From NCBI GenBank assembly GCA_902790465.1, contig CADASF010000009.1:1-64000 (forward strand): 64,000 nucleotides of DNA, written 5' to 3'. Under the pieces are notes generated by a model. That model saw nothing but the letters and a program-made list of their open reading frames with translations. It was not told where the DNA came from and made no database searches. Both the position numbers and the translations under genes were made by a program. Below are positions 720-43,100 of the stretch, in pieces. The stretch comes from an uncultured bacterium (GTDB lineage: Bacteria > Vulcanimicrobiota > CADAWZ01). Numbering within the stretch: position 1 is the stretch's first letter; each line of letters begins with the position of its first letter.

Positions 720-812
720 TTAAAAAGGTGGTTATTAGACAAAATATAATGTATTACATAATTTTAATTTTAATGTTTAATAATAATTTTGTAGTATTTT
801 GACCCCGTAAGG
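720..812 (+). promoter_or_regulatory. Presumed CRISPR leader
   Basis: This AT-rich stretch adjoins the first repeat on the side from which a Cas12a-type array would be transcribed. A TATAAT-like -10 box lies at 745-750; no good -35 box is visible. Just before repeat 1 the sequence gacccc-gtaa-gggtc can form a small hairpin that overlaps the repeat start. Assignment rests on position and repeat orientation. Confidence 0.45.
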
Positions 813-1560
813 GTCTAATAACTACCTTAAATGCCTACTATTGTAGGTTTTTCCAATTTTTCCATGACCTTGTGCAGTCTAATAACTACCTTAAATGCCT
901 ACTATTGTAGGTTTATGCAGTAAAAAATGAAACAGAAGAAGAGTCTAATAACTACCTTAAATGCCTACTATTGTAGGTGGTATCTCTCTAAATTTTTATT
1001 TATATGTCTAATAACTACCTTAAATGCCTACTATTGTAGGTACCTAAGAATTTGAGAGCTGCATCTGCGTCTAATAACTACCTTAAATGCCTACTATTGT
1101 AGGTAGTTTCATTAAAATTTTTAAGAATAGATTCGTCTAATAACTACCTTAAATGCCTACTATTGTAGGTTTAGCCTTCGAAAAGGATTTAGATTTGGAA
1201 CGTCTAATAACTACCTTAAATGCCTACTATTGTAGGTGAGCATTTGCTTTAATAATAGATTTTTTATTAGTCTAATAACTACCTTAAATGCCTACTATTG
1301 TAGGTCGCCGTGGACTTGGCTTAATTGCTTCAGAGTCTAATAACTACCTTAAATGCCTACTATTGTAGGTATAACAATGAATACCAATAACCCCGAGGTC
1401 TAATAACTACCTTAAATGCCTACTATTGTAGGTACATAGAGATTCCTTATATTAAGACCCTGTCTAATAACTACCTTAAATGCCTACTATTGTAGGTTGC
1501 TCTGGGTATTTGTCAAATTGGTTGGTCTAATAACTACCTTAAATGCCTACTATTGTAGGT
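813..1560 (+). CRISPR. CRISPR array with Cas12a-type repeats
   Basis: Twelve 36-bp repeats, which read identical, start at 813, 877, 943, 1006, 1069, 1135, 1202, 1270, 1335, 1398, 1462 and 1525, and enclose eleven unique spacers of 27-32 bp. Each repeat starts gtctaataac and ends gcctactattgtaggt. The 3' end folds as CCTAC-TATT-GTAGG-T, the short stem-loop typical of type V-A (Cas12a) crRNA, so transcription is on the + strand and mature crRNAs would carry this handle 5' of the spacer. Canonical Cas12a handles have UCUAC/GUAGA; here the outer U-A pair is C-G, a compensatory change. The last repeat is not degenerate. No adaptation genes lie in the window; the only cas-like gene is the nuclease-dead Cas12a at 34131. 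Confidence 0.97.
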
Positions 1561-2801: not shown

Positions 2802-3230
2802 ATGAAAAACATATGCTGTACAGGATGTAATTCAGAAAAAATACATAAAATTTCTTCAATCTTACATGTAATTTTTGAACAGAAAAAGTATAATGAAAAC
2901 AGAAATTATTACACTGAATTATGGAAAAAAAGAATTCGTCTAAATTCAAAGTATAATATTTTGTTGATACAAAATAAATATTATCATTATAGATCAAATA
3001 TATTTTGGTTTATATTTTTGTATATTTTTTGTTGTTTTGTATTACCTATTTTTACTCGGATACCATTTGCTGTATATCCATGTAATTATAGGGTGATATT
3101 AAAGAAAAATACAAGTATATTTGTAAAATTACATTTAGCTTATAAAAAAATGACAAGAAAGAAATTTGTAAATATAAGATATGTAAGTTATAGAGCAAGA
3201 GAAGAGATGAATAAATTGGGGATGAAGTGA
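2802..3230 (+). CDS. Small hypothetical protein with one membrane segment
   Basis: This 142-residue frame begins with two closely spaced cysteines (CCTGC), is basic, and has one hydrophobic segment at about residues 68-86 (FWFIFLYIFCCFVLPIF), followed by a basic tail. I do not recognise the family. The upstream gagaga is a weak ribosome-binding site and there is no operon partner. It may be a degraded gene or not translated at all. Confidence 0.35.
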   Translation: MKNICCTGCNSEKIHKISSILHVIFEQKKYNENRNYYTELWKKRIRLNSKYNILLIQNKYYHYRSNIFWFIFLYIFCCFVLPIFTRIPFAVYPCNYRVILKKNTSIFVKLHLAYKKMTRKKFVNIRYVSYRAREEMNKLGMK

Positions 3231-3270
3231 ATATAATAACAAAGAAAATAAGACAAATGCGAGGTTGTGA

Positions 3271-4087: not shown

Positions 4088-4105
4088 GTGGTGAAAATGT
4101 GAAAA

Positions 4106-4633
4106 ATGGCTGAAAAAATAAGCTCTTTTATTATTGAAAATTTTCCATTTGAGTTAAGAGCTGATTTAGATTTGTTATCAAGACGAATTGATGTTGTGAA
4201 CGAAGACAAACAAGATGAATTGTTTAAGATTTTGAGAAAATATAAAATTCAAAATTTTGTTCCAATTCTTATGGGAACTAATCGCTGTACTTTTACTTGG
4301 AATGGCTATATTATTAAATGTGCAGTTGAAGTTGCTGGAACAATTGATAATAAGAAAGAATTTGAAATAGCAAACAAATTACAGCAGTATGTTTGTCAAA
4401 TTTATGAAATTACCAGTAATTGTCACATAATGGTTTGTGAGTACATTCAGCCATTTGATACATTTGAACAGATGCTTGAATATAAAGAGGAAATTCTTTC
4501 AATTTCACATCAACTTTCATTAACTTATTCATTTGAAGATTTTGTAATTGATGAAAAGAATTTTAGAAAATGGGGAATTAGAATTGGAACAAATAAGCCA
4601 GTTTGTCTTGATTTTGCTGATTTTATTAGTTAA
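4106..4633 (+). CDS. Small protein with kinase-like motifs, function unknown
   Basis: This protein of 175 residues has hints of a reduced protein-kinase-like fold: a Lys in a beta-strand context (YIIKCAVE, about residue 72), a helix with Glu, a hinge-like segment IMVCEYIQPFDTFEQM, and CLDFADF near the C-terminus, which resembles a DFG-like metal site. There is no HRD-type catalytic loop, so activity is doubtful. It follows the broken LRR gene by 18 bp and precedes a strong terminator, so the two may have been one unit. The kinase relation is inference from motif order only. Confidence 0.55.
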   Translation: MAEKISSFIIENFPFELRADLDLLSRRIDVVNEDKQDELFKILRKYKIQNFVPILMGTNRCTFTWNGYIIKCAVEVAGTIDNKKEFEIANKLQQYVCQIYEITSNCHIMVCEYIQPFDTFEQMLEYKEEILSISHQLSLTYSFEDFVIDEKNFRKWGIRIGTNKPVCLDFADFIS

Positions 4634-4636
4634 AAA

Positions 4637-4685
4637 AAAGGAGGGTCTTTGAAAAAGCATTTTTTCAAAGACCTTCCTTTTTAGA
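4637..4685. terminator. Bidirectional terminator
   Basis: The arms aaggagggtctttgaaaaa and ttttttcaaagaccttcctt form a near-perfect stem with A-rich and T-rich flanks. It separates two convergent genes, the + strand gene ending at 4633 and the - strand FmdB gene ending at 4692. Confidence 0.9.
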
Positions 4686-4691
4686 AGTTTA

Positions 4692-4916
4692 TTAATGACA
4701 GCAGGAAGAACAATTTCCACCGCTACAGCTTCCACAAGAACAACCGCTTGAATGTGAATGACCACCAGACGATAATCCACTCACAGCAAATGAAGAAAAT
4801 TGTTTTTCTGTGTCTGCACTTTTGCATTTTGGACAAGATGTGTCAGATTTTGAATTTCTGACAAGTCTTTCAAATTCATTTCCACAATTTTTACATTTAA
4901 ATTCAAATATAGGCAT
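4692..4916 (-). CDS. FmdB-family zinc-ribbon protein
   Basis: The 74-residue protein opens MPIFEFKCKNCGNEFE, the hallmark of the FmdB/CxxC_CxxC_SSSS family, followed by CPKC to complete a CxxC...CxxC zinc ribbon. The C-terminus is a Gly/Ser/His/Cys-rich tail with many extra cysteines (from about residue 50), typical of family members that may bind further metal. FmdB was first linked to regulation of formamidase expression, but most members have no proven role. It is a single-gene unit in convergent orientation to its left neighbour. Confidence 0.9.
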   Translation of the reverse strand: MPIFEFKCKNCGNEFERLVRNSKSDTSCPKCKSADTEKQFSSFAVSGLSSGGHSHSSGCSCGSCSGGNCSSCCH

Positions 4917-5101
4917 TTTTTATTCCTCCGTATTTTGTCTTTCGCCTCTTTTGTATATTGTTGGAATAAAATTTTTCGTTTTATCTTCAAAAGTATATTT
5001 TTATAAAATAAAATATTTTCCTTTTTATATACTGGTTACAAACAAAGAGTTTTTAGGAATTTTATCGAAAATACATAATGTAAAGGTTGGAAAAACAAAA
5101 A

Positions 5102-5830
5102 ATGATATGTAAAGTTTGTGGCTATAAATTTAATAAATCAAAAAAAAATTCAAAATGTCCTTTTTGTGGAGAAGAAATTTCTTCACAAAAACAAAAAAGA
5201 AAAAAATACAATAAAAAAAATAATGATAATTCTCTAATTGCTCGACCGCATGAGTATAGTTCAACTATCCCACAAAAATTTAGAGAAGATTGGTTTTGCT
5301 CTTTTGAAATAAATAAAAATGAATTGAAAATGAGTCGCTTTTTAAATGGTGGGCAATTTTCTTTTTTGGGAAATTTAATACTGTTTATAATGGGATTTAT
5401 TTTCCTTTTGGGATTTATTTTCTTTTTTCCATATATTATTGGTATAGTAGAGATAATTTTGATTGGAATGGGTATGTTATTTTTGATAGCTATAATATTT
5501 GCACAAGATTTTACTTATTCTACATATAGAGTAAATTCAAGTGGAATTATTGTAAAAACGCCTTTAAAAGAATATTTTATACCAAAAGAAAAAATTGATT
5601 CTATTGCTTGCAAATGTGTACGTAGAGTTAAAAAAATAGATTTAGATGATAACTATTATGAGTCATTTTACGATCTTTTTATTATATTAAGAAATAAAGA
5701 TAAACATCTTTTTAATAAAATAGACATAGATACTGGATTATGCTACAAAGATAGGATTCAAGTTAAATATTTAGTAGATAAATTCAATGAATATTTAGGA
5801 TTTATACAAGATGAAGGAGATAAAAAATGA
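5102..5830 (+). CDS. Zinc-ribbon membrane protein, paralogue of the next gene
   Basis: This protein of about 242 residues has an N-terminal zinc ribbon (CKVCGYKFN then CPFCGEE), a lysine-rich linker, then a block beginning WFCSFEINKNELKMSRF and two adjacent hydrophobic segments (about residues 90-110 and 120-140). A basic cytoplasmic-type domain follows, containing IPKEKIDSIACKCVRRVKK and ending with DTGLCYKDR...LVDKFNEYLG. The same layout without the ribbon occurs in the next gene, which overlaps its stop by 4 bases (ATGA). I do not recognise a family; the post-membrane part is PH-domain-like in size, which is a guess. ATG 5102 is preferred to TTG 5087, whose ribosome site would be too close. 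Confidence 0.65.
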   Translation: MICKVCGYKFNKSKKNSKCPFCGEEISSQKQKRKKYNKKNNDNSLIARPHEYSSTIPQKFREDWFCSFEINKNELKMSRFLNGGQFSFLGNLILFIMGFIFLLGFIFFFPYIIGIVEIILIGMGMLFLIAIIFAQDFTYSTYRVNSSGIIVKTPLKEYFIPKEKIDSIACKCVRRVKKIDLDDNYYESFYDLFIILRNKDKHLFNKIDIDTGLCYKDRIQVKYLVDKFNEYLGFIQDEGDKK

Positions 5831-6642
5831 ATTTATCAGATATTGAACGATATTTTAAAGGTATAGCTTGTTCATTTGAGCAAAAACAAGATGAACTTAA
5901 AATTTCTCGTTTTGTAAATGGTGGACATTTTTGGCGTCTCGGATTTTATTGTATATATTTTTTATTTATATTTTTTTGTATTTTTTGTGCTATTTTAGGA
6001 AATATATTTGGAAATTGCCTTCCTATGATTTTAGTAATGTTGTTTTCTATTATATTTCCATCCAGTATAAGATATCTAATTTATATTACATTTACTGTAA
6101 ATTTAAAAGGTATTTTGGCAAAAACAATAGATAATAAAAAATATTTTATACCAAGAGAAAAAATTGATTATTGTTTTTCTAAAAAAGTTAAAAGATACAA
6201 ATATAAAAGTTCAGATGAAGCAAAAATATTTTATTGTGTTTTTATTAAATTAAATGAAATTCCTGATGAGCCAATAAAATTTAACCAAGATATTTTGTCT
6301 TCTTTTAATAATGTTTTAAGTGGAAAAATATTTTCTAATTTTAATAAAGTTTGTATTACGGTCTCAGAAGTAGATACTGGTTTGTGCTATGAATCAAAGA
6401 TGCCTGCTAAGTATCTTGCAAATGAATTTAATAAGTATTTAGGAATAGAATTTGTTGAAGAGGAAGAAGTCAAAGAAAAAGATACTGATAAAAAAAGTAA
6501 GAAAAAAACAAAAGATACTGATAAAAAAAGCAAGAAAAAAATAAAAGATACTGAAGAAAAGACGGTCAAAGAAAAAGATATTGATAAAAAAAGTAAGAAA
6601 AAAATAAAAGATAAAAAAAGCAAAGTAAAAGTAGAAAACTAA
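5827..6642 (+). CDS. Membrane protein with lysine-rich repeat tail
   Basis: This 271-residue paralogue of the preceding protein shares SFEQKQDELKISRFVNGGHF, two hydrophobic segments, IPREKIDYCFSKKVKRYK and DTGLCYESKMPAKYLANEFN. It lacks a zinc ribbon but gains a C-terminal tail of about 50 residues built from three repeats of the type KDTDKKSKKKIK, a very basic and probably disordered extension. Its start overlaps the upstream stop, so the two are translationally coupled and may form a membrane heteromer. The tail lies in a DNA repeat that could change length by slippage. Function unknown. Confidence 0.7.
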   Translation: MNLSDIERYFKGIACSFEQKQDELKISRFVNGGHFWRLGFYCIYFLFIFFCIFCAILGNIFGNCLPMILVMLFSIIFPSSIRYLIYITFTVNLKGILAKTIDNKKYFIPREKIDYCFSKKVKRYKYKSSDEAKIFYCVFIKLNEIPDEPIKFNQDILSSFNNVLSGKIFSNFNKVCITVSEVDTGLCYESKMPAKYLANEFNKYLGIEFVEEEEVKEKDTDKKSKKKTKDTDKKSKKKIKDTEEKTVKEKDIDKKSKKKIKDKKSKVKVEN

Positions 6643-29263: not shown

Positions 29264-31171
29264 ATGAATAATAAACTTTGTGAAGCAGTAGATGAGATTG
29301 AATGTATTATCATAAATACATTTAATGAATATAATCTGAATTATGAAAATTTTTCTATCGATTCTTATTATAAAGAAAATGATAGATTAAATCGTCCTGC
29401 AATTTCTAAAGAACAGTGTTTAGAAGACAGAAAAGGGATGATTGATGTTTTGGCTCGTTATTATAATAAATGGAAAAATGAAAAAGATAATTTTATTACT
29501 CTTTTTGCCATTTATTGTAATATTTATATTCGTTATAATCTTCATCAAGTATTGTCTGAAAAAGATTTTGGTCTTTCCGTACTTTTTGAAGAGATTGATG
29601 ATTATAAAATGAGGGAATATTTGGATTTAATTCAAAATGGAATTTATAATCAAGATATTTCTTATTTTAAAAAAGCACATGAAAAAAATGATAAATATTC
29701 TGTTGCTAATATTTATCTTTTTGAATACTATTTAAGAGATTATTCTGTTTCTGAATATAAAAAAGAAAGTGATTCTAAAAAACAAAGAGAGATTAAAGAT
29801 TTTTTTACTCCTCTATTTGGTGATGCAAAAAAATATTCTATTTTAGATGATAATGAAGACATTATATATAAAATTTTAGAATATTTTGATAATATCAGTG
29901 ATGATTTACAGAGTTATATCCTTGGAAATGATAATATTTTTAAAAGTTGTTTTTGTTTTGATAAAGAACCTCTACCATATTTAAAGGTTTTTAATAATGA
30001 GATTGAATTTCAAGATTTTATTTTGAAAAATTCTGTTAAATATTTTGATAAATTTAAATATTTATCAGAACAGGAATCATTTGAAAGTAAAAGTAAAAAA
30101 TATGAGGATTTAAATTCTTATATATCTGAAGTTGTAAAAAAAATTGAGGAATTTGATTACAATGATGAAAATTTAAAAGAGAAATATCTTAATAGTGATA
30201 TACTTGAAGATAGATTATTGTATTTAGGGATTCCTTGTATTATTTTTAAATCAAAATATTATGTTTCACTTCTTTTGAAACAAAGTAAACTTTATAAGAA
30301 AATATCTGATACTGAAAAAGAAAAAAATAGTATTATAAAAGATTTTTCACATAAATATAAAAATATGAAAGCAACAACTTTGCATGATATAGGAAATACA
30401 TTGCTGAAATCTGAGAATAAGAATTATAGAGAATATGGTCAAAAGGTTTTAGTTGAATATGTACTTAAAGAATCCTTGACTAAAGATGTCTATATGATGC
30501 AGCTGATGTTTGAACAGGATAAAGTAAAATTATGTGAAAAATTGAAAGATAGCTTATTGTATTATACTGATTCTTCCAAAAAAAATATTAGAGATGTTAT
30601 AAATACAGCATTAGTCTTTTGTTTTATAAATGTATTTTATAACAAGGATTCAAAATTTGTATACATGAGAGAAAATGTGGAATTATTGAAAGATAATATA
30701 GATGATGTTATAAAAGACTTTCAGGAAAATGTTATATTTAAAGGAAAAGATTGTATAAATTGGTTATTAGATAATGGTATTTCATGTAATTTGATTTTAT
30801 CTGAATCTGATGATTGGAATCGTGTTTCATTGAAATCAGAAGATTATGCTTTTATATATTTAAAAGATATATTTCAAGAACTCTTTTTAAATTTTCTTAA
30901 TTATGGAAATTTAGAAAAGCCAATGATATTAAAACTTTATTCTAAAGAAGATCAATTTGTAATATATACTGAAAATTATCTATTTGATGAAGATGAAAAT
31001 ATTCAGATAGGATTGCGTTCTTCTTCTACAGGTTTAAAATCATTTGCTAATATTTTGCCTATGTTATATGAAGAAGATATTCCGATAGAAAAATATTTTA
31101 GACCATCTAAAAGACAAGATATTTTTAGCTTGGAAATAGAAATGCCAATAAAAAGATTTATTTTAGATTGA
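29264..31171 (+). CDS. Histidine-kinase-like protein (GHKL ATPase C-terminus)
   Basis: The 635-residue protein has a helical N-terminal half without recognised sensor domain or membrane segment. Around residue 360 the segment IIKDFSHKYKNMKATTLHDI looks like a dimerisation helix with a phospho-acceptor His. An N-box-like DIFQELFLNFLNYG (about 540), a strand KLYSKEDQFVIYTEN and SSSTGLKSFANILPML as a G2-like box (about 588) follow. Together with the preceding receiver-like protein it forms an unusual soluble two-component pair. ATG 29264 follows agagg; ATG 29243 overlapping the previous stop is possible. Confidence 0.65.
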   Translation: MNNKLCEAVDEIECIIINTFNEYNLNYENFSIDSYYKENDRLNRPAISKEQCLEDRKGMIDVLARYYNKWKNEKDNFITLFAIYCNIYIRYNLHQVLSEKDFGLSVLFEEIDDYKMREYLDLIQNGIYNQDISYFKKAHEKNDKYSVANIYLFEYYLRDYSVSEYKKESDSKKQREIKDFFTPLFGDAKKYSILDDNEDIIYKILEYFDNISDDLQSYILGNDNIFKSCFCFDKEPLPYLKVFNNEIEFQDFILKNSVKYFDKFKYLSEQESFESKSKKYEDLNSYISEVVKKIEEFDYNDENLKEKYLNSDILEDRLLYLGIPCIIFKSKYYVSLLLKQSKLYKKISDTEKEKNSIIKDFSHKYKNMKATTLHDIGNTLLKSENKNYREYGQKVLVEYVLKESLTKDVYMMQLMFEQDKVKLCEKLKDSLLYYTDSSKKNIRDVINTALVFCFINVFYNKDSKFVYMRENVELLKDNIDDVIKDFQENVIFKGKDCINWLLDNGISCNLILSESDDWNRVSLKSEDYAFIYLKDIFQELFLNFLNYGNLEKPMILKLYSKEDQFVIYTENYLFDEDENIQIGLRSSSTGLKSFANILPMLYEEDIPIEKYFRPSKRQDIFSLEIEMPIKRFILD

Positions 31172-31200
31172 TATTTCCATTAAGGCAGGTGTTTTTTATC

Positions 31201-31815
31201 ATGTATATATTGGATTTGTTGAAAAAATGTAGTGCTATTGATAAAGAAAATGTTTTAGAGTGGATTTTTGGGGATTTAGATATTGAAGATAAAATTGATA
31301 GTTTAAAAAAAGAAGTAGAAGATGATAAAAATATCAATAAATGTTTTGGTTTGGGCTTGTTATATTTTTATGGAATAGGTCTTGATAAAGATTATAAAGA
31401 ATCTTTGGAATATTTTAATAAAGTATACTCTAATTTAAAAGATAGCACGATTCAATATTTAATTGGATTATTGTATCTTGAAGGTGGATATGGAATAGAA
31501 CAAGATATAACAAAAGCAATAACATTTTTTTCAGAATCATCTGATAATGGTAATGTAGAGGCACTATATAAGTTAGGTTGTATTTATAAAGATGGTATAG
31601 GTGTTGATAAAAATTACGAAGAAGCAACTAAATATTTTGAAAAAGCTACAGCTAAGGGGCATTTAAAATCACATTATGAGCTTGGGCTTTTATATTATTT
31701 TGGTTTAGGAGTTCCTTTAAATAAAGAGAAAGCAAAACTTTTATTTTATGATTCTAATGAACAAGGTGATATATCTTCTAAGATAATTTTAAAATGCTTG
31801 TTTAATAATAAGTAG
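31201..31815 (+). CDS. Sel1-repeat protein 1
   Basis: The 204-residue protein has four to five Sel1-type TPR-like repeats from about residue 45 on, for example CFGLGLLYFYGIGLDKDYKE and YKLGCIYKDGIGVDKNYEEA, spaced about 36 residues. Sel1 repeats form helical solenoids for protein contacts. It follows the histidine-kinase-like gene by 29 bp and may be in the same operon. ATG 31201 is used; the frame extends upstream without a good start. No signal peptide. Confidence 0.85.
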   Translation: MYILDLLKKCSAIDKENVLEWIFGDLDIEDKIDSLKKEVEDDKNINKCFGLGLLYFYGIGLDKDYKESLEYFNKVYSNLKDSTIQYLIGLLYLEGGYGIEQDITKAITFFSESSDNGNVEALYKLGCIYKDGIGVDKNYEEATKYFEKATAKGHLKSHYELGLLYYFGLGVPLNKEKAKLLFYDSNEQGDISSKIILKCLFNNK

Positions 31816-31827
31816 GTGAATTTACAT

Positions 31828-31885
31828 AAAGGCTTTTTGATAATTAATTTTAGTTATCGAAAGGTCTTATTTTATTTTTTGTAAA
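31828..31885 (+). terminator. Terminator, first copy of a repeated intergenic unit
   Basis: The segment aaggctttttgataatt pairs with agttatcgaaaggtctt (with G-U pairs) and is followed by ttattttatttttt. A diverged copy of the same intergenic sequence occurs at 32952-33010 between the next two Sel1 genes. Confidence 0.7.
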
Positions 31886-31927
31886 ATTGTATAATTAATA
31901 ATATTTCATATTTTTATAGGTGATTAC

Positions 31928-32908
31928 ATGATAGATGAATTTTTTGAAAAAAAATATTTATTTAGAGATTTTTTTGATAATTTTAATTTTCATTTAGCTA
32001 TGAATTCTCTGTTTTATGATAAATTTGAGGATTATGAACAAACTCGTTATAGTTTTGAAAAATGGTCCTCAGAAGGTGATCCAGAAGCACAATTTTATTT
32101 AGGGCGTATGTATAAAGAGGGGAATGGGGAAGTAATAGATGAAAAGAAAGCAAATATATTATTTGTAAAATCCCTTCGTACTTTTTTAAATTTGACCAAA
32201 TCGGATAAATTGGATTCAAAGTCTAATTTTTATATTGGTTTAATGTGCTTACATGGATATGGTACACATAAAGATTTGCTAAAATCATTAAATTTTTTTA
32301 GTAAATCAGCAAAAAAGGGACATGATTTTGCTCAAGTATTTCTTGGTATTATGTATTATAATGGAGATGGTGTTGAGCAGAATTATACAAAGGCTTTTGA
32401 ATTGTTTGAAGAATCTGCAAAACAAGGAAATAATTTTGCACAATTTCATCTTGGTCTTATGTATTACGCTGGTTTAGGTGTTGATCAGAATTATGAAAAG
32501 GCTTTTGAATATTGTAGTAAATCCGCTAAACAGAAGAATAGAGAAGCACAATTTGTTCTTGCTTATATGTATAAAAATGGTGAAGGGATTGATAAGAATT
32601 ATAAAAAAGCCTTTGATTATTATAAAGAATCTGCAGAACAGGGATTTTTACATTCTCAGTATAATCTTGCTTGTATGTATTATAATGGAGATGGTGTAGA
32701 GCAAGACTCTGAAAAGGCTTTTAAATGGTACAAAAAATCTGCAAAACAGGGACATGCACAGGCTCAGCATATGCTTGGTACTATGTATGAGCAAGCTATA
32801 GGAGTTGAGATGAATATTATAGAGGCTTATAGATGGTATAAAAAATCTGCAAAACAAGGAAATGAAAAAGCTAAAGAAGAGATATTTAGATTAGAAAATA
32901 GTAATTAG
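31928..32908 (+). CDS. Sel1-repeat protein 2
   Basis: The 326-residue protein consists of seven to eight Sel1 repeats after an N-terminal segment of about 40 residues (KKYLFRDFFDNFNFHLAMNS). Repeats follow the consensus AQFHLGLMYYAGLGVDQNYE with KAFEYCSKSAKQG. No signal peptide or membrane segment. It is a close paralogue of the next gene, and the intergenic DNA before each is also duplicated, so the two arose by tandem duplication. Sel1 proteins often modulate signalling partners; here the adjacent receiver/kinase pair is a candidate. Confidence 0.88.
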   Translation: MIDEFFEKKYLFRDFFDNFNFHLAMNSLFYDKFEDYEQTRYSFEKWSSEGDPEAQFYLGRMYKEGNGEVIDEKKANILFVKSLRTFLNLTKSDKLDSKSNFYIGLMCLHGYGTHKDLLKSLNFFSKSAKKGHDFAQVFLGIMYYNGDGVEQNYTKAFELFEESAKQGNNFAQFHLGLMYYAGLGVDQNYEKAFEYCSKSAKQKNREAQFVLAYMYKNGEGIDKNYKKAFDYYKESAEQGFLHSQYNLACMYYNGDGVEQDSEKAFKWYKKSAKQGHAQAQHMLGTMYEQAIGVEMNIIEAYRWYKKSAKQGNEKAKEEIFRLENSN

Positions 32909-32951
32909 TGAATACTATTGAGTGAATTACTCAACTCATAATTTGATAAAA

Positions 32952-33010
32952 ATAAGGCTTTTTGATAATTAAATTTCATGTATTTAAAGGTCTTATTTTA
33001 TTTTTTGTAA
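32952..33010 (+). terminator. Diverged second copy of the Sel1 intergenic terminator
   Basis: The string aaggctttttgataatta and the T-rich end aaaggtcttattttatttt match 31828-31885. The stem is less well paired here, so termination may be weaker. The next frame is open through it, but starting there would be inside the terminator copy. Confidence 0.5.
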
Positions 33011-33048
33011 AAATAATATTAAAAAATATTTTTGTCTGGTATATTTTT

Positions 33049-33996
33049 ATGAGTGAAATTTCATATATTGGTATAAATAGTTTGTTATTTAAATTAGCAA
33101 TATTATCTGAAGATTATGAAGTATCTTTAAATAATTTCCTAAAATTATCTTATGAAGATGAACCACAACAAGCTTCAGAAGCTCAATTTTATTTGGGTTT
33201 AATGTATAAATATATTAATGAGATAAAAGATGAAAATAAATCGAAAAGATTTTTTATCAGATCTTTTTATACTAATCTTTGTTTAGCTAAAAAAGGTATT
33301 TGTAAATCTCAATATTATATCTGTTTAATGCTTTTTGAGGGATTTGGTATTGAAAAGAACATTGAACAGGCATTTGAATGGTGTAAGAAATCAGCAGAGC
33401 AAAATTATGAGGATGCTCAATTCATGCTTGCTAATATGTATTTTGAAGGTCTTGGCATAGAAAAAGATTATATCAAAGCTATTGAATATTATAAAAAGTC
33501 AGCTGAACAAGGTAATGATTTGGCACAATATAGACTTGGTGAAATATATGAACAAGGAATAGGAGTAGAAAAAGATAATAAACAATCTTTTGAATGGTAT
33601 AAGAAATCAGCAGAACAAGATAATTTTAGAGCTCAATGTCGCCTTGGTGATATATTTTACAAAGAATATAATGATTTTGATGTTAAACAAGATATAAATA
33701 AGGCTATTGAATGGTTTAATAAATCAATTGAACAAGATTATGAAAAAGCTAAAAAAGAGCTTGGTTTGTTATATTTGAACCTTGGTGATACATATTATAG
33801 TAAATATGAAGAATTGTCTAAAGATTGTGAAGAATCTGAGGAATATTATGAAAAATTAGAAGAATATTATAAAAAATCTGAAGAATATTATAATAAATCA
33901 GCAGAACACAATAATAGAGCTAAGGTTAAGCTTAGAGATAATTTTGAAGGTTATGATATATACATAGGAAGTGATGAAGAAAAAATAAATTGGTGA
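33049..33996 (+). CDS. Sel1-repeat protein 3
   Basis: This protein of about 315 residues has six to seven Sel1 repeats (for example AQFMLANMYFEGLGIEKDYI and AQYRLGEIYEQGIGVEKDNK), then a Glu/Tyr-rich helical stretch with a short internal repeat (EYYKKSEEYYNKSAEH). It is a paralogue of the preceding protein. I start at ATG 33049 (MSEISYIGIN) because the upstream frame crosses the duplicated terminator. It is the gene immediately upstream of the Cas12a-like gene, 134 bp away on the same strand. Confidence 0.82.
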   Translation: MSEISYIGINSLLFKLAILSEDYEVSLNNFLKLSYEDEPQQASEAQFYLGLMYKYINEIKDENKSKRFFIRSFYTNLCLAKKGICKSQYYICLMLFEGFGIEKNIEQAFEWCKKSAEQNYEDAQFMLANMYFEGLGIEKDYIKAIEYYKKSAEQGNDLAQYRLGEIYEQGIGVEKDNKQSFEWYKKSAEQDNFRAQCRLGDIFYKEYNDFDVKQDINKAIEWFNKSIEQDYEKAKKELGLLYLNLGDTYYSKYEELSKDCEESEEYYEKLEEYYKKSEEYYNKSAEHNNRAKVKLRDNFEGYDIYIGSDEEKINW

Positions 33997-34130: not shown

Positions 34131-37100
34131 ATGCTAAAAGGTATGACAAACCTTTATCCTATTGAAAAAACTGTTTGTTTTGAGCTTCGTCCAATAGGTA
34201 ATACTCTTGAACATTTTTACAAAAATGAAATTATTGAAAAAGCTCAAAATAGATCAGATGAATTTAGAGAGATAAAACATTTAATAGATCCTATACATAA
34301 AGAGATAATAGAAGAATGTTTTCAAGAGTTATCGGAAAACTCTGAATTTACAAGACTTCTTGAAAAATATGAATTCAAGCCACATGTTATAAATTCAAAA
34401 AAGCCACTTCCAAGAGACAAAAAGCTTATAGAAGAAAATATATATAACAAAAAGGAAATTGTTGAAATAGTAAAAGATACTTTTAGACATAACCCAAAAT
34501 ATAAATTGATATTTTCCGACAAAAAAATAGATATGTTGAAAGAATATTATAAAGATGATTGTGAAAAATTTGAATTAATTTCACATTTTGAAGAATTTGC
34601 TTCATATTTTGAGAAATATGACATAAAACTTAAAAATATATATGGATGTGAAGGCAAAATTTCAAATACATGTAAATCAATATTAAATAGACTCATAACA
34701 GATAATCTTCCAATTTTTTATTTCAATACAAAAAAAAATATATTGACAAAAGTAAAATTTTCTGCAAGTTTTGAAAATGTAAAATATATTGATAAATTTG
34801 CTTCTTATTTTTCTATATCAGGAATAGAAAAATACAATAAAATTATTGGAAATATAAATGATGCAGTAAATAAATTAAATCAAAAGGGAAAAAAATATTC
34901 ATATTTAGGAAAAATGAAAGATATTTTCGATTTAGACCAATATTCAGATATTGTGAAAAAAATATCTGACGATAAAGAATTGGTTGAAATAATCAACATA
35001 TTTATAGATGGTCAGGATATCGAAGAACTCAAAAATACTTTTTCTAATTTAAATGACAAATATAATTTAAAAAAAATATTTGTAAGAAGAGGAAAAGAAC
35101 TTGATGATCTTCTAAAAAGAATAGATTTTAAGGGAAGAGCAAGGCTTACTACATCTTATGTAAATTTATTCTATATAGATAGTATAAATAGAAATAAAGT
35201 TAAAATTTATGAGGCTATTTCCGTTAAAATAAATGAACTTGTTGATGATTATATCAAAAAATATGAAGATGTAAAATATATTCTAACTGCTAAATATGAT
35301 AGTGGAACTAAGATATTAGGGCAGAATGATAAAAATATAGCAAAGATAAAAGAATTGTTAGAATCTATAAAAGCAATATATGATTTTGTTTCAATATTTA
35401 TTCCTAAAAAAGCAGAAAACAGAGATAATATAGACTACGAAAAAGTAAATTTTGATATTTACAATAAAATAAATTTTGAAAGACTTTCAATAATCAACCA
35501 GATTTTTAATCATTTTAAAGATTATTTTACATTGAAGAATTTTTCAACAAAGAAAATAAGATTGAATTTCAATGTAGAACAATTATTAAATACTTGGGAT
35601 ATAGATAAAATAGATGAAACACTTGGAACAATACTTTTAAAAGAAGAAGAGGAAAAAACAAAATATTATCTTGGCATTCTCAATAGCTCAAACTATTCTA
35701 AATTTGAATACACAGATGTAAAAGAAAACAATTATAGGCAAATGATATATACATCACAATCTGAAGAAGAAAAGAATAAAAATTATAAAATATCATTCAA
35801 ATATATAAACTCTGCAAAAATAGATGAGATGGTAGAAAAAGATGAGATGTATCTATTCCAAATCTATAATAAAGATTTTTCAAGTTATTCAAACGGGAAT
35901 TATAAACTTAACACAATGTATTGGAATAATATTTTTGATAGTAATAATATCGAAAATATTATTTTCAATATAGCTGGTGGAGCAACAATTTTCTTTAGAG
36001 CAAAAAGTCTTGAGAGAAGAGAGACTCACAAACAAGGCGAAGTTTTGTCAAATAAAAACAAAGATAATCAAAAAACAACAAGTATTTTTAGCTATCCATT
36101 GATAAAAAACAAAAGATATACCGAAGACAAAATAAAACTTCATGTTCCTATTGAAATTAACTGCAATTCAAAAAATTTGAATCAGAGAAAGTTAAATTAT
36201 AGAGTAAATAAAAATATTCAAAACCTGAAAGAAGTAAATATAATAGGCATAAGCAGAGGCACAAATGATCTTTTATATGCAACTGTTATAAATTCCAAGG
36301 GCGAAATTATCGAACAGACTTCTTTAGGTAAAATAAAAAATGTTGTATTTGACAAGTCAATAAATGCAACCAGAGAAATAATTTCAGACTATAATAAAAT
36401 CATTGATACAAAAGAAAAAGAAAGAGAAAATGCAAATAACAGAAATAAAACAGGCGAAGAATTGAATCTTGAGAAGAGTATTAAAGACATCAAAAATGGT
36501 TATATTAGTCAAGCTGTAAATGTTATTGCAAATCTTGTCAAAAAATATAATGCAATCATTGTTTTTGAGGATTTAAATGACAAAAAATCTGAAAAAATAG
36601 AATCAAAGATAGAAAAATCAATATATCGTAATATTCAAAATGCCGTTATAACAAAATTGAGTTACCTTGTAGACAAAAAGAAAAAAGACAAATTTGCGGA
36701 AGGCTCAATATTAAATGGCTATCAGTTGACATATTATTGCGAACAAGATTTAGTTGAAAAACAAGAAGATTCAGAAGAAAAACAAAATGGAATCGTATTC
36801 TATGTTTCAACATATATGACAACAAATATAGACCCAAAAACTGGATTTGTAAATTGTTTTTCTGTCAGTCTTCCAAAATCTATCGATGGAGTGAAAGATT
36901 TCTTAGAAAAATTTAAAGAAATCAAATTCAACACAAAAGAAGGCTACTATGAATTTGTTGTAAACTATGAAAACATTAGTAAATATACAAGATATTTTAT
37001 AGGTGAAAAACTTTCAAAAAAAGAATGGGTTATTTGCTCTTATGGTGACAGAATTGAAGAAAGTAAAGATATAAATACAGGAAAAACAAAATATAAAAAA

Positions 37101-37574
37101 ATAGACCTAACAAAAGAATTTAAATGTCTTTTTGAGAAATTTAATATTGGACAAGGTAAAAAACTTAAAACCAATATTATAAAATTTCTTGAAAATTTGG
37201 ATTTAGGTAGTGGATTACAGGCTAAAATTAAGGGAACGAATAGATTTATAAATAAACAAAGTATTCAACAAGAAGAATTTTGTAGGGAATTTATGCGACT
37301 TTTTGCATTAATATTAAAGTTACAGAATTCAGATGGCAAAGAAAGTTATATAATATCCCCTGTAAAAGATAGTGATGGAAAATTTTTTGATTCAAGAAAG
37401 CATAATGAATATTCTTCTATAGTGCCAGAAAATGAAATTTCAAATTCTGCTTATAATATTGCAAGAAAAGGATTGTTAATCATCAATAGAATTAAAAAAA
37501 CAAAAGAACTTGAAAGAATCGATCTAAATTTAAGAGACGAATATTGGCTCAATTTTGTACAAAACAATAATTAG
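34131..37574 (+). CDS. cas12a: Nuclease-dead Cas12a homologue lacking most of the PAM-interacting domain
   Basis: The intact 1147-residue protein starts with the Cas12a WED-I signature (MTNLYPIEKTVCFELRPIG) and matches Cas12a to its end (family usually about 1200-1300). Approximate layout: REC 26-470, WED-II 474-520, remnant PI region 520-560, WED-III 562-700, RuvC-I at 702, bridge helix 735-775, RuvC-II at 805, Nuc about 930-1085, RuvC-III at 1090. Against LbCas12a from memory: RuvC-I Asp832 is Ser708 (IIGISRGTNDLLY), RuvC-II Glu925 is Glu813 (IIVFEDLN), Nuc Arg1138 is Gln1065 (LKLQNS), and RuvC-III Asp1180 is Ile1103 (NEISNSAYNIARKG). Between KYYLGIL (511) and FQIYNKDF (576) about 85 residues of the PI domain, including the PAM-reading Lys loop, are absent. 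The crRNA-processing residues are retained: His633, Lys642 and Lys659, spaced exactly as FnCas12a His843/Lys852/Lys869. Ribosome site aagggga precedes ATG 34131. Confidence 0.95.
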   Translation: MLKGMTNLYPIEKTVCFELRPIGNTLEHFYKNEIIEKAQNRSDEFREIKHLIDPIHKEIIEECFQELSENSEFTRLLEKYEFKPHVINSKKPLPRDKKLIEENIYNKKEIVEIVKDTFRHNPKYKLIFSDKKIDMLKEYYKDDCEKFELISHFEEFASYFEKYDIKLKNIYGCEGKISNTCKSILNRLITDNLPIFYFNTKKNILTKVKFSASFENVKYIDKFASYFSISGIEKYNKIIGNINDAVNKLNQKGKKYSYLGKMKDIFDLDQYSDIVKKISDDKELVEIINIFIDGQDIEELKNTFSNLNDKYNLKKIFVRRGKELDDLLKRIDFKGRARLTTSYVNLFYIDSINRNKVKIYEAISVKINELVDDYIKKYEDVKYILTAKYDSGTKILGQNDKNIAKIKELLESIKAIYDFVSIFIPKKAENRDNIDYEKVNFDIYNKINFERLSIINQIFNHFKDYFTLKNFSTKKIRLNFNVEQLLNTWDIDKIDETLGTILLKEEEEKTKYYLGILNSSNYSKFEYTDVKENNYRQMIYTSQSEEEKNKNYKISFKYINSAKIDEMVEKDEMYLFQIYNKDFSSYSNGNYKLNTMYWNNIFDSNNIENIIFNIAGGATIFFRAKSLERRETHKQGEVLSNKNKDNQKTTSIFSYPLIKNKRYTEDKIKLHVPIEINCNSKNLNQRKLNYRVNKNIQNLKEVNIIGISRGTNDLLYATVINSKGEIIEQTSLGKIKNVVFDKSINATREIISDYNKIIDTKEKERENANNRNKTGEELNLEKSIKDIKNGYISQAVNVIANLVKKYNAIIVFEDLNDKKSEKIESKIEKSIYRNIQNAVITKLSYLVDKKKKDKFAEGSILNGYQLTYYCEQDLVEKQEDSEEKQNGIVFYVSTYMTTNIDPKTGFVNCFSVSLPKSIDGVKDFLEKFKEIKFNTKEGYYEFVVNYENISKYTRYFIGEKLSKKEWVICSYGDRIEESKDINTGKTKYKKIDLTKEFKCLFEKFNIGQGKKLKTNIIKFLENLDLGSGLQAKIKGTNRFINKQSIQQEEFCREFMRLFALILKLQNSDGKESYIISPVKDSDGKFFDSRKHNEYSSIVPENEISNSAYNIARKGLLIINRIKKTKELERIDLNLRDEYWLNFVQNNN

Positions 37575-37602: not shown

Positions 37603-37640
37603 TAAAAAGGTTGTGGTTATTTAATCACAGCCCCTTTTTG
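37603..37640 (+). terminator. Terminator after the Cas12a-like gene
   Basis: A hairpin of aaaaaggttgtgg and the facing cacagccccttttt sits 29 bp past the stop codon and ends in T5. The gene therefore looks like a single-gene unit on its downstream side. Confidence 0.8.
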
Positions 37641-37908: not shown

Positions 37909-37961
37909 TATTCAAATTATTTAACTGCCGACTTAATATTATAAAAAGGGAGAGAGTTTTT

Positions 37962-38287
37962 ATGGGATTTTCTGAAGAACAATCAAAAGTAATTTAAAAA
38001 GCACAGGAAGAATTGAAAAAGATTCCTATTATTCCATGCAAACTTGTAATTATTGTGCCAAAGTATGTCCAATGGAAATAGGCATTTCAGGCTCATTTAC
38101 AGCGATGAATTATTTGACATTATATGGTGATCTAAAAGTTGCAAAAGAACAGGGATCTTGGCTTGTTGGAATGCACGGAAGAAAGAAAGCCTCTGAGTGT
38201 GTGAAGTGTGGACAATGTGAAGAAGTTTGTCCACAACACATTAAAATTAGAGATATATTAGAAAAAATTGCTTCAACAATTGGATAG
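37962..38287 (+). pseudogene. Decayed copy of the ferredoxin-type aldo/keto reductase
   Basis: Compared with the intact gene at 40869, this copy keeps the first three codons (MGF), then jumps over most of the catalytic domain to EEQSKVI. It carries a nonsense change (gaa to taa) right after that and a one-base deletion before the first cysteine cluster (atgcaaacttg versus gtacaacttg). The remaining frame from 38036 still encodes most of the C-terminal 4Fe-4S domain. With no catalytic domain and three lesions it cannot make the enzyme. Confidence 0.88.
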
Positions 38288-38300
38288 CAAGAGGTAACTT

Positions 38301-38436
38301 ATTAAATACAGAATTAATAAAAGAACTTAAAAAGGCTTCTGATTGTGTAAAATGTGGACATTGTGATAAAAGATGTCCATTCCATGTAAAGCAAAGTAAG
38401 AAGATGACGGAAATTGCCAATTTTTTTGATAAATAG
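38301..38436 (+). pseudogene. Decayed copy of the second aldo/keto reductase
   Basis: The start aaatacagaattaataaaag matches the first codons of the intact gene at 42006, but the ATG is ATT. The sequence then joins directly to the last segment, KKASDCVKCGHCDKRCPFHV, ending TEIANFFDK. About 90 per cent of the gene is deleted. Its position right after the decayed first reductase mirrors the intact pair, showing that the two-gene block was duplicated. Confidence 0.85.
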
Positions 38437-38624: not shown

Positions 38625-40503
38625 ATGAAAAAAGATTTACGAAGTGAGAATGTAAAAAAGATTGCTGAAGATTTTCCGATGTGCATAACGGAGATAAGAG
38701 ACAAGGATGGCAATTTAAAAAAGGTTGTTGATTTTGAGAAGTTCAAAGATTTATTTTTAGATGATATAAGAGACCGAGAAGAGGCTTATGAATTTACTTG
38801 GGCAGGGAAGAGAGAGGCTTTACGAAAGGCTTTTGAATATAATGATAAAATTCTCCGTCCTGTTGTTGAAGATAGTCTCAATTTTTTTGATACCCAAAAT
38901 ATTTATATAGAAGGCGATAACCTTGATGTATTAAGGATTTTGCGGAGATCTTATTTTGAAAAGGTTAAGATGATTTATATCGATCCTCCATACAACACAG
39001 GACACGATTTTATTTATAATGATAATTTCAAAAAATCAAAGGAAGATGAAGAAGAGGAACTCGGACTTTGGGACGAAGAAGACAACATGCTTTTTGAAAA
39101 CAAGGAATCAAACGGCAGATTTCACTCTGATTGGTGTAGCATGATTTATTCTCGCCTTCTTTTGGCACGAGACCTTTTAAGACTAGACGGAGTAATTTTT
39201 ATTTCTATAGATGACAATGAAGTCGCTTCACTTCGTAAAATTTGTGACGAAGTCTTTGGTGAAGATAATTTTATAAATATTATATCGAGAGTTATGAAAA
39301 GTGGAGGGGCAAAAGGTAGATTTTTTTCGCCAAATATGGAATATGTGCTTGTTTATTGTAGAAATATAGAAACTGTTAAAAATTTTAGAGAACCTATTTC
39401 CGAAGAAATTATTAATAAATTATACACTTCTATTGAAGAAGAAGGAGAAAGAAAAGGAGAAAGATATAGACCATTTGGATTATATCAATCTTCATTAGAT
39501 ATAAGACCAAATCAAAGATATTATATAGAATGTCCAGATGGGACTTTAGTAATTCCTCCAGGAGACTCTATGCCTTCAATCAAGAAAGATGGTGCTATGG
39601 TTACTCCTAAGACAAATGATGGTTGTTGGAGATGGAGTAAAGAAAGATATATTGAAGAAAAGAAAAAGGGGAATATAGCTTTTAAAGAATCAAAAGGAGT
39701 TTTAGTAACTTCAGAAGGACAACCTGCAAAATGGAATGTTTATACTAAGATTTGGTTAAAAGATAGACAGGAAGAAGGAATGGTTCCTGTAGATTTAATT
39801 ACTAAGTGGGAAAATCGTATAGGAACTAAAGAATTATCCGAATTAAAAATACCTTTTGAATTTTCTAAACCTTCCGATTTAATAAAATATTTAATAAATA
39901 TTATAGATTCACAACCTAACGACATTATCCTCGACTTCTTTTCTGGTTCTGCAACAACGGCACATGCTGTTATGCAATTAAACGCAGAAGACAACGGAAA
40001 CAGAAAATATATAATGGTACAGATTCCTGAAAAATGCGATGAAAAAAGCGAAGCATACAAAGCAGGGTATAAAAATAACAAATGCAAATATTGATTATGG
40101 ATTTAAAGTTTTTAAAGTTGATTCTTCCAATTTTAAAGAAGAAATCAGCGTTCCTGCAGATGAATTTGATTTTAAAAATTTAGAAAACTGTATCGAGAAT
40201 ATAAAAGAAGATAGAACTTCACTTGATTTAGTTTATCAATGTATTTTAAGTTTGGGAAAAGAACTAACACTGCCTATAAAGACAGAAAATATCGACGGCT
40301 TCACTGTTTATAATTTGGATAATTTTAGTATTATGTGCTGTTTTGATGAAAATATTTCTGATGAAGTTATGAAATATATGGCAGATAAAGAGCCTGAAGC
40401 AGTATATTTTAGAGATAGTTGTTTTAGAGATTCAAGCCATAAATTGAATGTCAAAGAATATTTTAAGGTGATCTCCGAAACTACAAGATTTGAAGATGTA
40501 TAA
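38625..40503 (+). pseudogene. mod: Type III restriction-modification methyltransferase (mod), broken
   Basis: The first frame (38625-40094) is an N6-adenine methyltransferase of the beta class: MIYIDPPYNTGHDF (about residue 117) and LDFFSGSATTAHAVM near its end, in the DPPY-then-FxG order of type III Mod proteins. After KCDEKSEAYKAGYK the frame is lost. A second frame resumes with NANIDYGFKVFKVDSSNFKE and ends in the typical Mod C-terminus (VYFRDSCF ... NVKEYFKVISE, stop 40503). The junction near 40070 lacks the segment that normally joins these parts, so a deletion of tens of codons with a frameshift is the likely cause. No res gene follows. The N-terminal target-recognition part is present. 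It sits between the decayed and intact copies of the reductase pair. Confidence 0.85.
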
Positions 40504-40868: not shown

Positions 40869-41993
40869 ATGGGATTTTGGGGTGAAGATATAAAGAAATT
40901 TGGATTTGGTTTAATGCGACTTCCCAAGATTGAGGGAACAGAAAAAATTGATGTAGAACAGACAAAAAAAATGGTTGATATGTTTTTAGAGGCTGGATTT
41001 ACATATTTTGATACAGCTTGGGCATATCCTGGTAGTGAAGATGCTATTAGACAGGCTTTGATTGAAAGATATCCAAGAGAAAAATTTAAACTTGCGACAA
41101 AAAATGCTGCTTGGATTGCTTGCAAAAATAGAGAAGACGCAATACGACAATTTGAAACTTCACTAAAGCAGACAGGTGCAGGTTATTTTGATTTTTATCT
41201 TCTTCACAATTTGGGAGAGGGAAGAACTCATTATTTTGATGATTTTGATATGTGGAATTTTGTACTTGAAAAGAAGAAAGAAGGACTTATAAAACATGTT
41301 GGTTTTTCTTTTCATTCAACACCTGAAGAACTTGAAGAGATTTTGAAAGCTCACCCTGAAGCAGAATTTGTACAACTTCAGATAAATTATGCAGACTGGG
41401 ATAATCCAGCCATACAATCAAGAAAAGTATATGAAATGGCTCAAAAATACGGAAAGCCTGTTATTGTAATGGAACCTGTAAAAGGTGGACTTTTGGCAAA
41501 GCCTCCAAAATCTGTTGAAAATGTTCTAAAAGATGCAGAACCAAATTCTTCTTGTGCTTCTTGGGCTATAAGATTTTCTGCAAATCTTGAAGGTGTTATG
41601 GTTGTTTTATCTGGTATGAGTAATATTGAGCAGATGAAAGATAACCTCTCATTTATGAAAGATTTTACTTGTCTTTCTGAAGAACAATCAAAAGTTATTG
41701 AAAAAGCTCAGGAAGAACTCAAAAAGATTCCTATTATTCCTTGTACAACTTGCAATTATTGTGCAAAAGTATGTCCAATGGAGATCGGAATTTCAGGTTC
41801 TTTCACTGCATTAAATTATTTGACATTGTACAATGATTTAAAGGTTGCAAAAGAGCAGGAAGGTTGGCTTGTTGGAATGCACGGAAGAAAAAAAGCATCA
41901 GAATGTATAAAATGTGGTCAATGTGAAGAAGCCTGTCCTCAACATATTAAAATTAGAGATATGCTTGAAGTTGTAACTGCTAAACTTGGATAA
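40869..41993 (+). CDS. Aldo/keto reductase with C-terminal 4Fe-4S ferredoxin domain
   Basis: The 374-residue protein opens with KFGFGLMRLPKIEGTEKIDV, followed by FDTAWAYPGSE (catalytic Asp and Tyr), LATKN (Lys) and YLLHNLGEG (His), as in the AKR family, and SGMSNIEQMKDN in the cofactor half. The C-terminus holds two cysteine clusters, CTTCNYCAKVCPMEIG and CIKCGQCEEACPQHIK, for iron-sulfur centres. Such ferredoxin-linked AKRs are common in anaerobes; the substrate is unknown. Its partner starts 13 bp downstream. A decayed duplicate of both genes lies 2.9 kb upstream. Ribosome site ggagg before ATG 40869. Confidence 0.92.
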   Translation: MGFWGEDIKKFGFGLMRLPKIEGTEKIDVEQTKKMVDMFLEAGFTYFDTAWAYPGSEDAIRQALIERYPREKFKLATKNAAWIACKNREDAIRQFETSLKQTGAGYFDFYLLHNLGEGRTHYFDDFDMWNFVLEKKKEGLIKHVGFSFHSTPEELEEILKAHPEAEFVQLQINYADWDNPAIQSRKVYEMAQKYGKPVIVMEPVKGGLLAKPPKSVENVLKDAEPNSSCASWAIRFSANLEGVMVVLSGMSNIEQMKDNLSFMKDFTCLSEEQSKVIEKAQEELKKIPIIPCTTCNYCAKVCPMEIGISGSFTALNYLTLYNDLKVAKEQEGWLVGMHGRKKASECIKCGQCEEACPQHIKIRDMLEVVTAKLG

Positions 41994-42005
41994 ATGGGAG
42001 AAATT

Positions 42006-43100
42006 ATGAAATACAGAATTAACAAAAGAACAGGCGATAAAATAAGTGAAATTGGTTTTGGTTCTGCATATATTTATGAAGCAGGAATGGAAAATGCTGT
42101 CAAAGTTCTTAGAAGAGCTTATGAAAATGGCATAAATTATTATGATTTGGCAGCAGGGGATGGCTCAAGTTTTCCAATGTATGGAGAAGCATTTAAAGAT
42201 GTTCGCAATAATATTTTTTATCAGATTCACTTTGGAGCTGATTATTCAAGAGGTACTTATGGTTGGACATTAAATCTTGATACAGTCAAAAAATCTATTG
42301 ATAAACAATTAAATGAACTTCACACAGATTATATTGATTATGGATTTATCCATTGTCAAGATGAACATTCCGATTGGAAAAAATATCAAGAAAACGGAAT
42401 CTTAAATTATATTTTGGAATTAAAAGAAAGTGGAGTTGTCAAACATATCGGTCTTTCCTCTCATACTCCTTCAGTTATACAGACCATTTTAAATACAGGT
42501 TTAGTTGATGTTTTGATGTTTTCTGTAAATATTGCCTATGACTATCAAAAGGGAGATTATGCAAAAGGCAGTGTTGATGAGCGTAATGCAATATTTAAGC
42601 GTTGTGAGAAAGAGGGGATAGGTATTTCTGTTATGAAGCCTTTCTCAGGTGGTCAACTTCTCAATTCTTCAACATCTCCATTTAAAAAAGCCTTAACTAT
42701 ATATCAATGCTTGAAATATATTCTTGACAAACCTGGAATTTTGACAGTTTTGCCAGGTGTAAAAGATATGAATGATTTGGAAAAACTTTTGGCATATTAT
42801 GATAAAACAGATGAAGAACTTGATTATTCAATAATAGGAACATTTGCACCTATAGAGGCAGAGGGAAAATGTGTTTATTGTAATCACTGTAAGCCTTGTC
42901 CTGCAGGATTGGATATTGGACTTATAAACAAATATTATGATTTGGCAAAAGTTGGAGATTCTTTGGCAGTTGAACATTATAAAACACTTGATAAGAAGGC
43001 TTCTGATTGTGTAAAATGTGGTCATTGTGATAAAAGATGTCCATTCCATGTAAAACAGAGTGAAAAAATGACAGAAATTGCAGATTTTTTTGCTAAATAA
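42006..43100 (+). CDS. Second aldo/keto reductase-like protein with 4Fe-4S domain
   Basis: The 364-residue protein has the AKR barrel order (SEIGFGSAYIYEAG, NYYDLAAGDGSS, DYGFIHCQDEHSDW, KHIGLSSHTPSVI, VLPGVKDMNDLEKL). The first cysteine cluster is altered (CVYCNHCKPCPAGLDI); the second is canonical (CVKCGHCDKRCPFHVK). The usual catalytic Tyr context is changed to DLAAGDG, so its chemistry may differ from that of gene one. It is transcribed together with the first reductase. ATG 42006 follows gggag and fits better than the ATG touching the previous stop (41994). Confidence 0.9.
   Translation: MKYRINKRTGDKISEIGFGSAYIYEAGMENAVKVLRRAYENGINYYDLAAGDGSSFPMYGEAFKDVRNNIFYQIHFGADYSRGTYGWTLNLDTVKKSIDKQLNELHTDYIDYGFIHCQDEHSDWKKYQENGILNYILELKESGVVKHIGLSSHTPSVIQTILNTGLVDVLMFSVNIAYDYQKGDYAKGSVDERNAIFKRCEKEGIGISVMKPFSGGQLLNSSTSPFKKALTIYQCLKYILDKPGILTVLPGVKDMNDLEKLLAYYDKTDEELDYSIIGTFAPIEAEGKCVYCNHCKPCPAGLDIGLINKYYDLAKVGDSLAVEHYKTLDKKASDCVKCGHCDKRCPFHVKQSEKMTEIADFFAK

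Follow-up and report, generated by a model that had tools for sequence, protein, structure and literature searches.

Can a type V-A CRISPR (clustered regularly interspaced short palindromic repeats) system persist when its effector has lost the parts with which it cuts, and what would such an effector do? The question is raised by a cas12a-like gene of an uncultured bacterium (GTDB lineage Bacteria; Vulcanimicrobiota; CADAWZ01), located in the first 64,000 nucleotides of contig CADASF010000009.1 of assembly GCA_902790465.1, a stretch read on the forward strand and called here the window. The natural loss of nuclease activity in the encoded protein, P0001, is as good as certain from its residues. 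P0001 is tentatively regarded, with a likelihood a little short of even, as the native effector of a dispersed, otherwise intact V-A system, converted to a non-cleaving protein that processes and binds CRISPR RNA (crRNA). An earlier account of the gene, made from the letters alone and referred to as the sequence-only reading, had proposed a nuclease-dead Cas12a; the array in the same window, the deletion of the protospacer adjacent motif (PAM)-interacting (PI) domain, the losses at the seed lock and the cap, and the retained processing triad go beyond it.

Identity, lost parts and kept parts of P0001

The features of the gene, with LbCas12a (Lb) residues for comparison, are as follows; residue assignments are from the alignment.

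34131..37574, forward strand: cas12a-like gene, 1147 amino acids, predicted nuclease-dead and PI-less (P0001), from open reading frame, profile, alignment and fold
34626..34631, forward strand: Lys166-Leu167, replacing the REC1 Asn-Arg (Lb N157-R158)
35751..35777, forward strand: junction left by the in-frame loss of the PI domain (equivalent of Lb ~584-668)
36027..36107, forward strand: His633, Lys642 and Lys659, the pre-crRNA-processing triad, kept (Lb H759, K768, K785)
36252..36254, forward strand: Ser708 (codon AGC), replacing the RuvC-I Asp (Lb D832)
36444..36446, forward strand: Asn772, replacing the bridge-helix Trp (Lb W890)
36567..36569, forward strand: Glu813, the RuvC-II Glu, kept (Lb E925)
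37323..37325, forward strand: Gln1065, replacing the Nuc Arg (Lb R1138)
37344..37346, forward strand: Ser1072, replacing an invariant Nuc/RuvC-III Asp (Lb D1148)
37437..37439, forward strand: Ile1103 (codon ATT), replacing the RuvC-III Asp (Lb D1180)

The reading frame is complete, with 1147 codons, as the sequence-only reading had it, and contains zero Ns. P0001 is a true Cas12a by profile, sequence and fold: the PADLOC Cas12a profile matches it at E 1.9e-202 over WED, RuvC and Nuc, Pfam matches include RuvC_1 (1e-54) and NUC (4e-31), and the best sequence match in the PDB has E 3e-130. An AlphaFold2 model built on a 39-sequence alignment (pLDDT 79.9, pTM 0.71) has LbCas12a (5xus) as its top Foldseek match (E 3e-68), and the fold is identical in kind. 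For comparison, GTDB genomes were scanned with a small Cas12a alignment, which gave 44 loci; the catalytic columns were read in 43 other Cas12a sequences covering the RuvC region, leaving out BpCas12a, which is dead as well, and the LbCas12a numbering was checked against a full LbCas12a copy. A contig of Paracoccus salsus EGI L200073 (L018) encodes LbCas12a with NLS (nuclear localisation signal) tags and linkers and is laboratory plasmid contamination; a similarly small contig of the same strain (L009), with a Moraxella-like Cas12a, is probably contamination too.

The columns of Lb D832, E925, R1138 and D1180 hold D/E/R/D in 43/43 of the other sequences and S708/E813/Q1065/I1103 in P0001, so that its RuvC triad reads S/E/I against D/E/D. 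The alignment thereby bears out the three substitutions and the residue numbers given by the sequence-only reading, and the comparison it had called for found the Ser and the Ile to be unique to P0001 among these 43 active-type sequences. Neither can be reached from an Asp codon with fewer than two base changes. The loss of the bridge-helix Trp, which it had also suspected, was confirmed (Trp in 43/43 others), and the bridge segment, at 37 residues, is 6 longer than in all 40 comparison sequences, which have exactly 31. The acidic residues nearest to the lost RuvC sites are E1102 and D713; E1102, which adjoins the lost RuvC-III position, might conceivably still act as a catalytic partner, and in the alignment no residue takes the place of the RuvC-I Asp. 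To judge by its sequence, P0001 is without a plausible two-metal RuvC site.

The losses extend to the side of the protein that meets the target. The PI region is reduced to 4 residues, versus 64-191 in every full-length homologue, by a clean deletion of about 81 amino acids that keeps the frame and is unique among the full-length homologues; in the AlphaFold2 model the flanking WED strands are joined by a short beta hairpin (535-543/551-559). The Arg of the REC1 Asn-Arg pair (Lb R158), invariant in the Cas12a family, is Leu in P0001; we take this pair to be the seed-duplex contact, or seed lock. The REC2 segment with the aromatic residue at Lb W355 (W/Y/F in 39/40), presumably the Trp that caps the heteroduplex, is missing. 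With PI domain, seed-lock Asn-Arg and cap Trp lost, PAM-dependent binding of double-stranded DNA (dsDNA) looks impaired.

The crRNA side is better kept. The His, Lys and Lys of the processing triad are all present, and pre-crRNA processing is predicted from them; their equivalents H843/K852/K869 are the RNase residues of FnCas12a (PMC5939048), and H759 sits at the 5' end of the processed crRNA (PMC6711708). Catalytic residues aside, the domains most retained relative to the closest homologues are RuvC-I, RuvC-III and WED-III (ratios 0.75-0.81), and the least retained are REC and the bridge helix (0.57-0.61). P0001 thus appears to keep the RuvC fold but not RuvC chemistry or target-side contacts.

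Arrays, phage repeat mimics and adaptation genes

The window itself contains an array and its leader element.

727..740, forward strand: leader anti-repeat GGTGGTTATTAGAC, able to pair, with one G-U, with the 14 nt at the repeat's 5' end
813..1560, forward strand: type V-A CRISPR array, 12 perfect 36-nt repeats GTCTAATAACTACCTTAAATGCCTACTATTGTAGGT and 11 unique spacers of 27-32 nt, found by searching for repeats of any sequence

Searches of the window and the genome for canonical repeat patterns (TTTCTACT..GTAGAT) gave no array, because the stem is altered; two matches, one in a coding region and one beside a tRNA, were rejected as chance. The repeat is of V-A type, about 36 nt with a 3' CUAC-loop-GUAG stem and in the same genome as the effector, and only its closing pair is non-canonical: the stem is CCUAC/GUAGG, versus UCUAC/GUAGA in 29/29 other Cas12a loci with repeats. 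This compensatory change from U-A to C-G gives the folded handle greater stability (-7.6 vs -4.8 kcal/mol). Three arrays in the genome share this one repeat, namely the 12 repeats of the window, an array on contig C6 whose leader is that of the window and whose 25 repeats include a degenerate one at the array end, and, in a prophage on C36 (L097, G000:C36, 5125-5390), a mini-array whose 3-4 units match the host repeat. In a sister species the repeat differs by a single change, the leader is the same and the spacers are others.

The leader anti-repeat is found also in the leaders of the C6 array (L095) and of L112, covaries with the repeat when the two species of the genus are compared, and is likewise present in five other V-A arrays (L006, L014, L019, L026, L031). 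It is reminiscent of the hairpin that leader and repeat form in Cas13 systems (PMC13187072). Upstream of the window's leader, positions 570-720 hold about 8 tandem copies of a unit of about 22 nt, TTTTACAAACCTCGGTCTTAA, copies of which also precede the C6 and G001 arrays. Two candidate spacer targets were rejected: the best phage match, Javan62 (E 0.09), spans a junction of the concatenated query, and a viral match to spacer 1, exact over 20 nt, has 6 mismatches over the whole spacer.

Repeat units occur in phages as well. Directly upstream of the prophage mini-array lies a promoter-like sequence, TTGACA ... TATAAC. A phage contig (L098, IMGVR_UViG_3300028833_000244), kin to the C36 prophage through a deoxynucleoside-kinase gene that is 78% identical, carries at 1402-1420 one solitary repeat unit with the same altered stem, apart from any cas genes. 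This is the form of known RNA anti-CRISPRs (Racrs), V-A examples included (PMC10651486), and the unit is likely to be a Racr, as far as its form and setting can tell.

The genome carries two cas1 genes, one in a type I operon on contig C66 and one in a cas4-cas1-cas2 set on C103 of the same assembly (G000), whose Cas1 is 53-55% identical to the V-A Cas1 of L026 and L006; this set is a V-A adaptation module. The ends of C66 (L053) and C103 (L054) share 51 nt within a transposase-like (Rpn-type) gene, and the two gene sets may be neighbours. No remnant of an intact cas12a was found beside cas4 on C103. In matched trees Cas1 and Cas12a attach at the same place, with L006/L026, and effector and adaptation genes therefore descend together. 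The Cas1 end branch of 0.64 (median 0.59) indicates a normal rate, and that of Cas12a, 1.55 (median 0.61), is about 2.5 times longer than its median and hence accelerated.

P0001 is nested among active Cas12a in the tree. Searched with P0001, collections of genome contigs and viral contigs, phages, and the genus, family, order and phylum of the host gave no close homologue, plasmids gave BpCas12a as the only match, and no Cas12a was found in 148 other searched genomes of the phylum. In the genome, 97.8% complete, no second Cas12a or Cas12a-type RuvC was found.

Binder, decoy or effector in decay

Three features lie downstream of the gene.

37609..37632, forward strand: intrinsic-terminator-like hairpin 3' of the cas12a gene
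37952..38410, forward strand: gene remnant, an aldo-keto reductase copy truncated relative to the genes at 40869-43100
38625..40503, forward strand: type III mod gene, frameshifted, two open reading frames matching successive parts of one profile

Conversion to a non-cleaving native effector is the preferred reading, and what the system has kept fits it: in the protein, the processing triad and the WED/RuvC scaffold by which the crRNA handle is held; in the genome, matching arrays with their leaders, and a V-A adaptation module. It is favoured by the broken RuvC triad, the clean PI deletion in a confidently predicted fold, the good retention of RuvC-I, RuvC-III and WED-III, the neutral-drift simulation described below, the joint descent with cas1, the compensatory stem change, the covariation of anti-repeat and repeat, the repeat mimics in prophage and phage contig, and the failure to find any other Cas12a in the genome. 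P0001 would mature crRNAs from the three arrays and hold them, and on targets, if any, would act by guided binding without cutting, more probably on RNA or single-stranded DNA (ssDNA) than on PAM-flanked dsDNA, such that binding might keep the target from being expressed or replicated. The PAM requirement of Cas12a holds for dsDNA and not for ssDNA (PMC5939048), and any pairing by a dead, PI-less Cas12a would therefore be expected to involve single-stranded targets. Against this reading stand the 33 kb between the gene and the nearest array, its separation from cas1 and from the C103 module, its being known from one genome only, with no close homologue that would allow a comparison of nonsynonymous and synonymous rates (dN/dS), and the failure to find it in the sister-species assembly (89% complete), though arrays are present there. 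Further points against it are the lack of any protospacer found for the array spacers, with no self-target, the replacement of a conserved N-terminal Arg (R18 in 37/40) by Cys16, the loss of 25/92 family-invariant sites (27%) across all domains and not only at the catalytic ones, and the broken mod gene and aldo-keto reductase copy next door, a sign of local decay.

A less likely but serious alternative is that of an effector in decay: the V-A system would have worked in this genus up to a recent time, perhaps to this day in other strains, and P0001 would have lost its function and evolved fast under relaxed constraint with no stop yet. The long P0001 branch (2.0 vs a median of 0.52), the invariant sites gone from every domain, the disappearance of contacts for target DNA, PAM and catalysis alike, the broken neighbours, and the position away from cas1 with absence from the sister assembly all agree with it. 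P0001 keeps 67/92 invariant residues, other members a median of 99% and at lowest 84%. In 300 simulated runs of neutral drift at this base composition, however, the loss of 25/92 left about 26 in-frame stops, with a minimum of 11, and P0001 has zero; its branch was therefore not neutral throughout. Simple neutral decay over most of the branch is unlikely by this simulation, with which a late onset would be compatible. The two-step changes of Asp to Ser and Asp to Ile, the kept processing triad and the confidently predicted fold also speak against decay, which is tenable only with late or partial relaxation. The claim of the sequence-only reading that the gene reflects selection for a non-cutting function and not recent decay is accordingly upheld against neutral decay over most of the branch, and late decay is possible.

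Two other roles are less probable. As a crRNA sponge or decoy, P0001 would hold handles idly, either damping immunity as a dominant-negative protein or soaking up phage repeat mimics; this suits the retention of handle-processing parts with loss of target-side parts and the mimics carried by phages of this lineage, and has a precedent in a phage Cas9 with a dead RuvC for which a dominant-negative role was suggested (PMC10910872), but the genome yielded no active Cas12a to oppose or protect, the gene has no recognisable phage or plasmid context, and P0001 pairs in phylogeny with the cas1 of its own genome, so that the idea is improbable. A crRNA-guided dsDNA binder that silences without cutting, in parallel to Cas12m, Cas12c or TldR, had been the suggestion of the sequence-only reading; RuvC loss with the RuvC fold kept would agree with it, and RuvC inactivation is recurrent in type V, with silencing by binding shown for V-C and V-M (PMC12669027), but the PI domain is deleted, the seed-lock Asn-Arg and cap Trp are lost and the bridge helix is rebuilt, and this suggestion is not sustained, being likewise improbable.

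If P0001 is a dead, PI-less Cas12a that still processes crRNA, it would show which parts of Cas12a nature can separate, provide a possible PAM-free guided binder, and let one ask whether a CRISPR system persists, and is fought by phages, without cutting. The further proposal of V-A immunity without nuclease or PAM recognition, in which single-strand binding is guided by crRNA, the repeat has co-diverged and phages contest it with repeat mimics, is judged rather doubtful; if true, it would make P0001 a natural PAM-free, non-cutting Cas12a. Should P0001 be decaying, it offers a rare view of an effector on its way out in a genome that still has the arrays and adaptation genes.

Elsewhere in the window, three Sel1-repeat proteins lie in a row directly upstream of the gene (31168-33996), and 9134-31171, a possible defence island, encodes a PP2C phosphatase, a protein kinase, an SF1 helicase, a PDC-M26A match, a DUF2357 protein, an AAA ATPase and two large proteins that match no Pfam family.

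Comparison with known systems

The nearest relatives by tree are the type V-A Cas12a of gut Clostridia (L026) and of Christensenella-like bacteria (L005/L006), 36-38% identical to P0001, which is homologous to V-A Cas12a over its full length except PI. Both have the processing triad, and in both cases the genome carries a V-A repeat, an array with leader, and cas4-cas1-cas2. Unlike these proteins, P0001 is without the RuvC-I and RuvC-III Asp, the Nuc Arg, the bridge-helix Trp and the whole PI domain, its repeat stem has C-G and not U-A, and the effector lies apart from cas1. Kinship with Cas12a2 and Cas12a3 was weighed and set aside, as both have the PI domain. Lacking the RuvC triad and PI though Cas12a by descent, P0001 is best called an inactivated V-A variant.

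Like other inactivated type V effectors, it has lost RuvC catalytic residues from an intact effector gene. In its accessible part the 2025 classification names V-C, V-M, V-O, V-P and Cas12b3 as RuvC-inactivated, and no inactivated V-A was found there; the search was of the open-access literature only, and novelty is unproven (PMC12669027). In Cas12b3, too, RuvC is inactivated within a subtype that normally cuts, and a CRISPR array has been kept, but it is a V-B protein of Actinomyces conjugative plasmids with mini-arrays, whereas P0001 is V-A, has arrays of 12 and 25 repeats and has lost PI (PMC12669027). Cas12m (V-M) and Cas12c (V-C) are type V effectors that by nature do not cleave their target DNA, as is predicted from sequence for P0001; they are subtypes of their own that bind PAM-flanked dsDNA, and P0001 is without the usual domain for that. 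With TldR it shares natural RuvC loss in an RNA-guided protein, the exaptation idea, but the closer parallel drawn by the sequence-only reading fails on descent: TldR derives from TnpB, and P0001, by the tree, from active Cas12a. TldR is generally known, and described in one source (PMC13418256), as TnpB-derived and phage- or transposon-encoded. It has no CRISPR array, and P0001 has V-A arrays and neither a TnpB origin nor a TnpB-type guide RNA.

A second natural dead Cas12a is BpCas12a (BpCpf1, WP_013282991.1; L004), an annotated public Cas12a encoded at 2865-6590 of Butyrivibrio proteoclasticus pCY360 (NC_014389.1). Like P0001 it has lost the RuvC-I Asp (Thr), the RuvC-III Asp and the Nuc Arg; unlike P0001 it has the PI region and the bridge-helix Trp, K768 and K785 of its processing triad are changed, and no array lies within the 11 kb read. 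The tree gives it a separate, independent branch, and it was rejected as a sister of P0001. Since BpCas12a is also dead, a dead Cas12a as such is not unique; what is new in P0001 is that PI is lost and that processing triad and arrays are retained.

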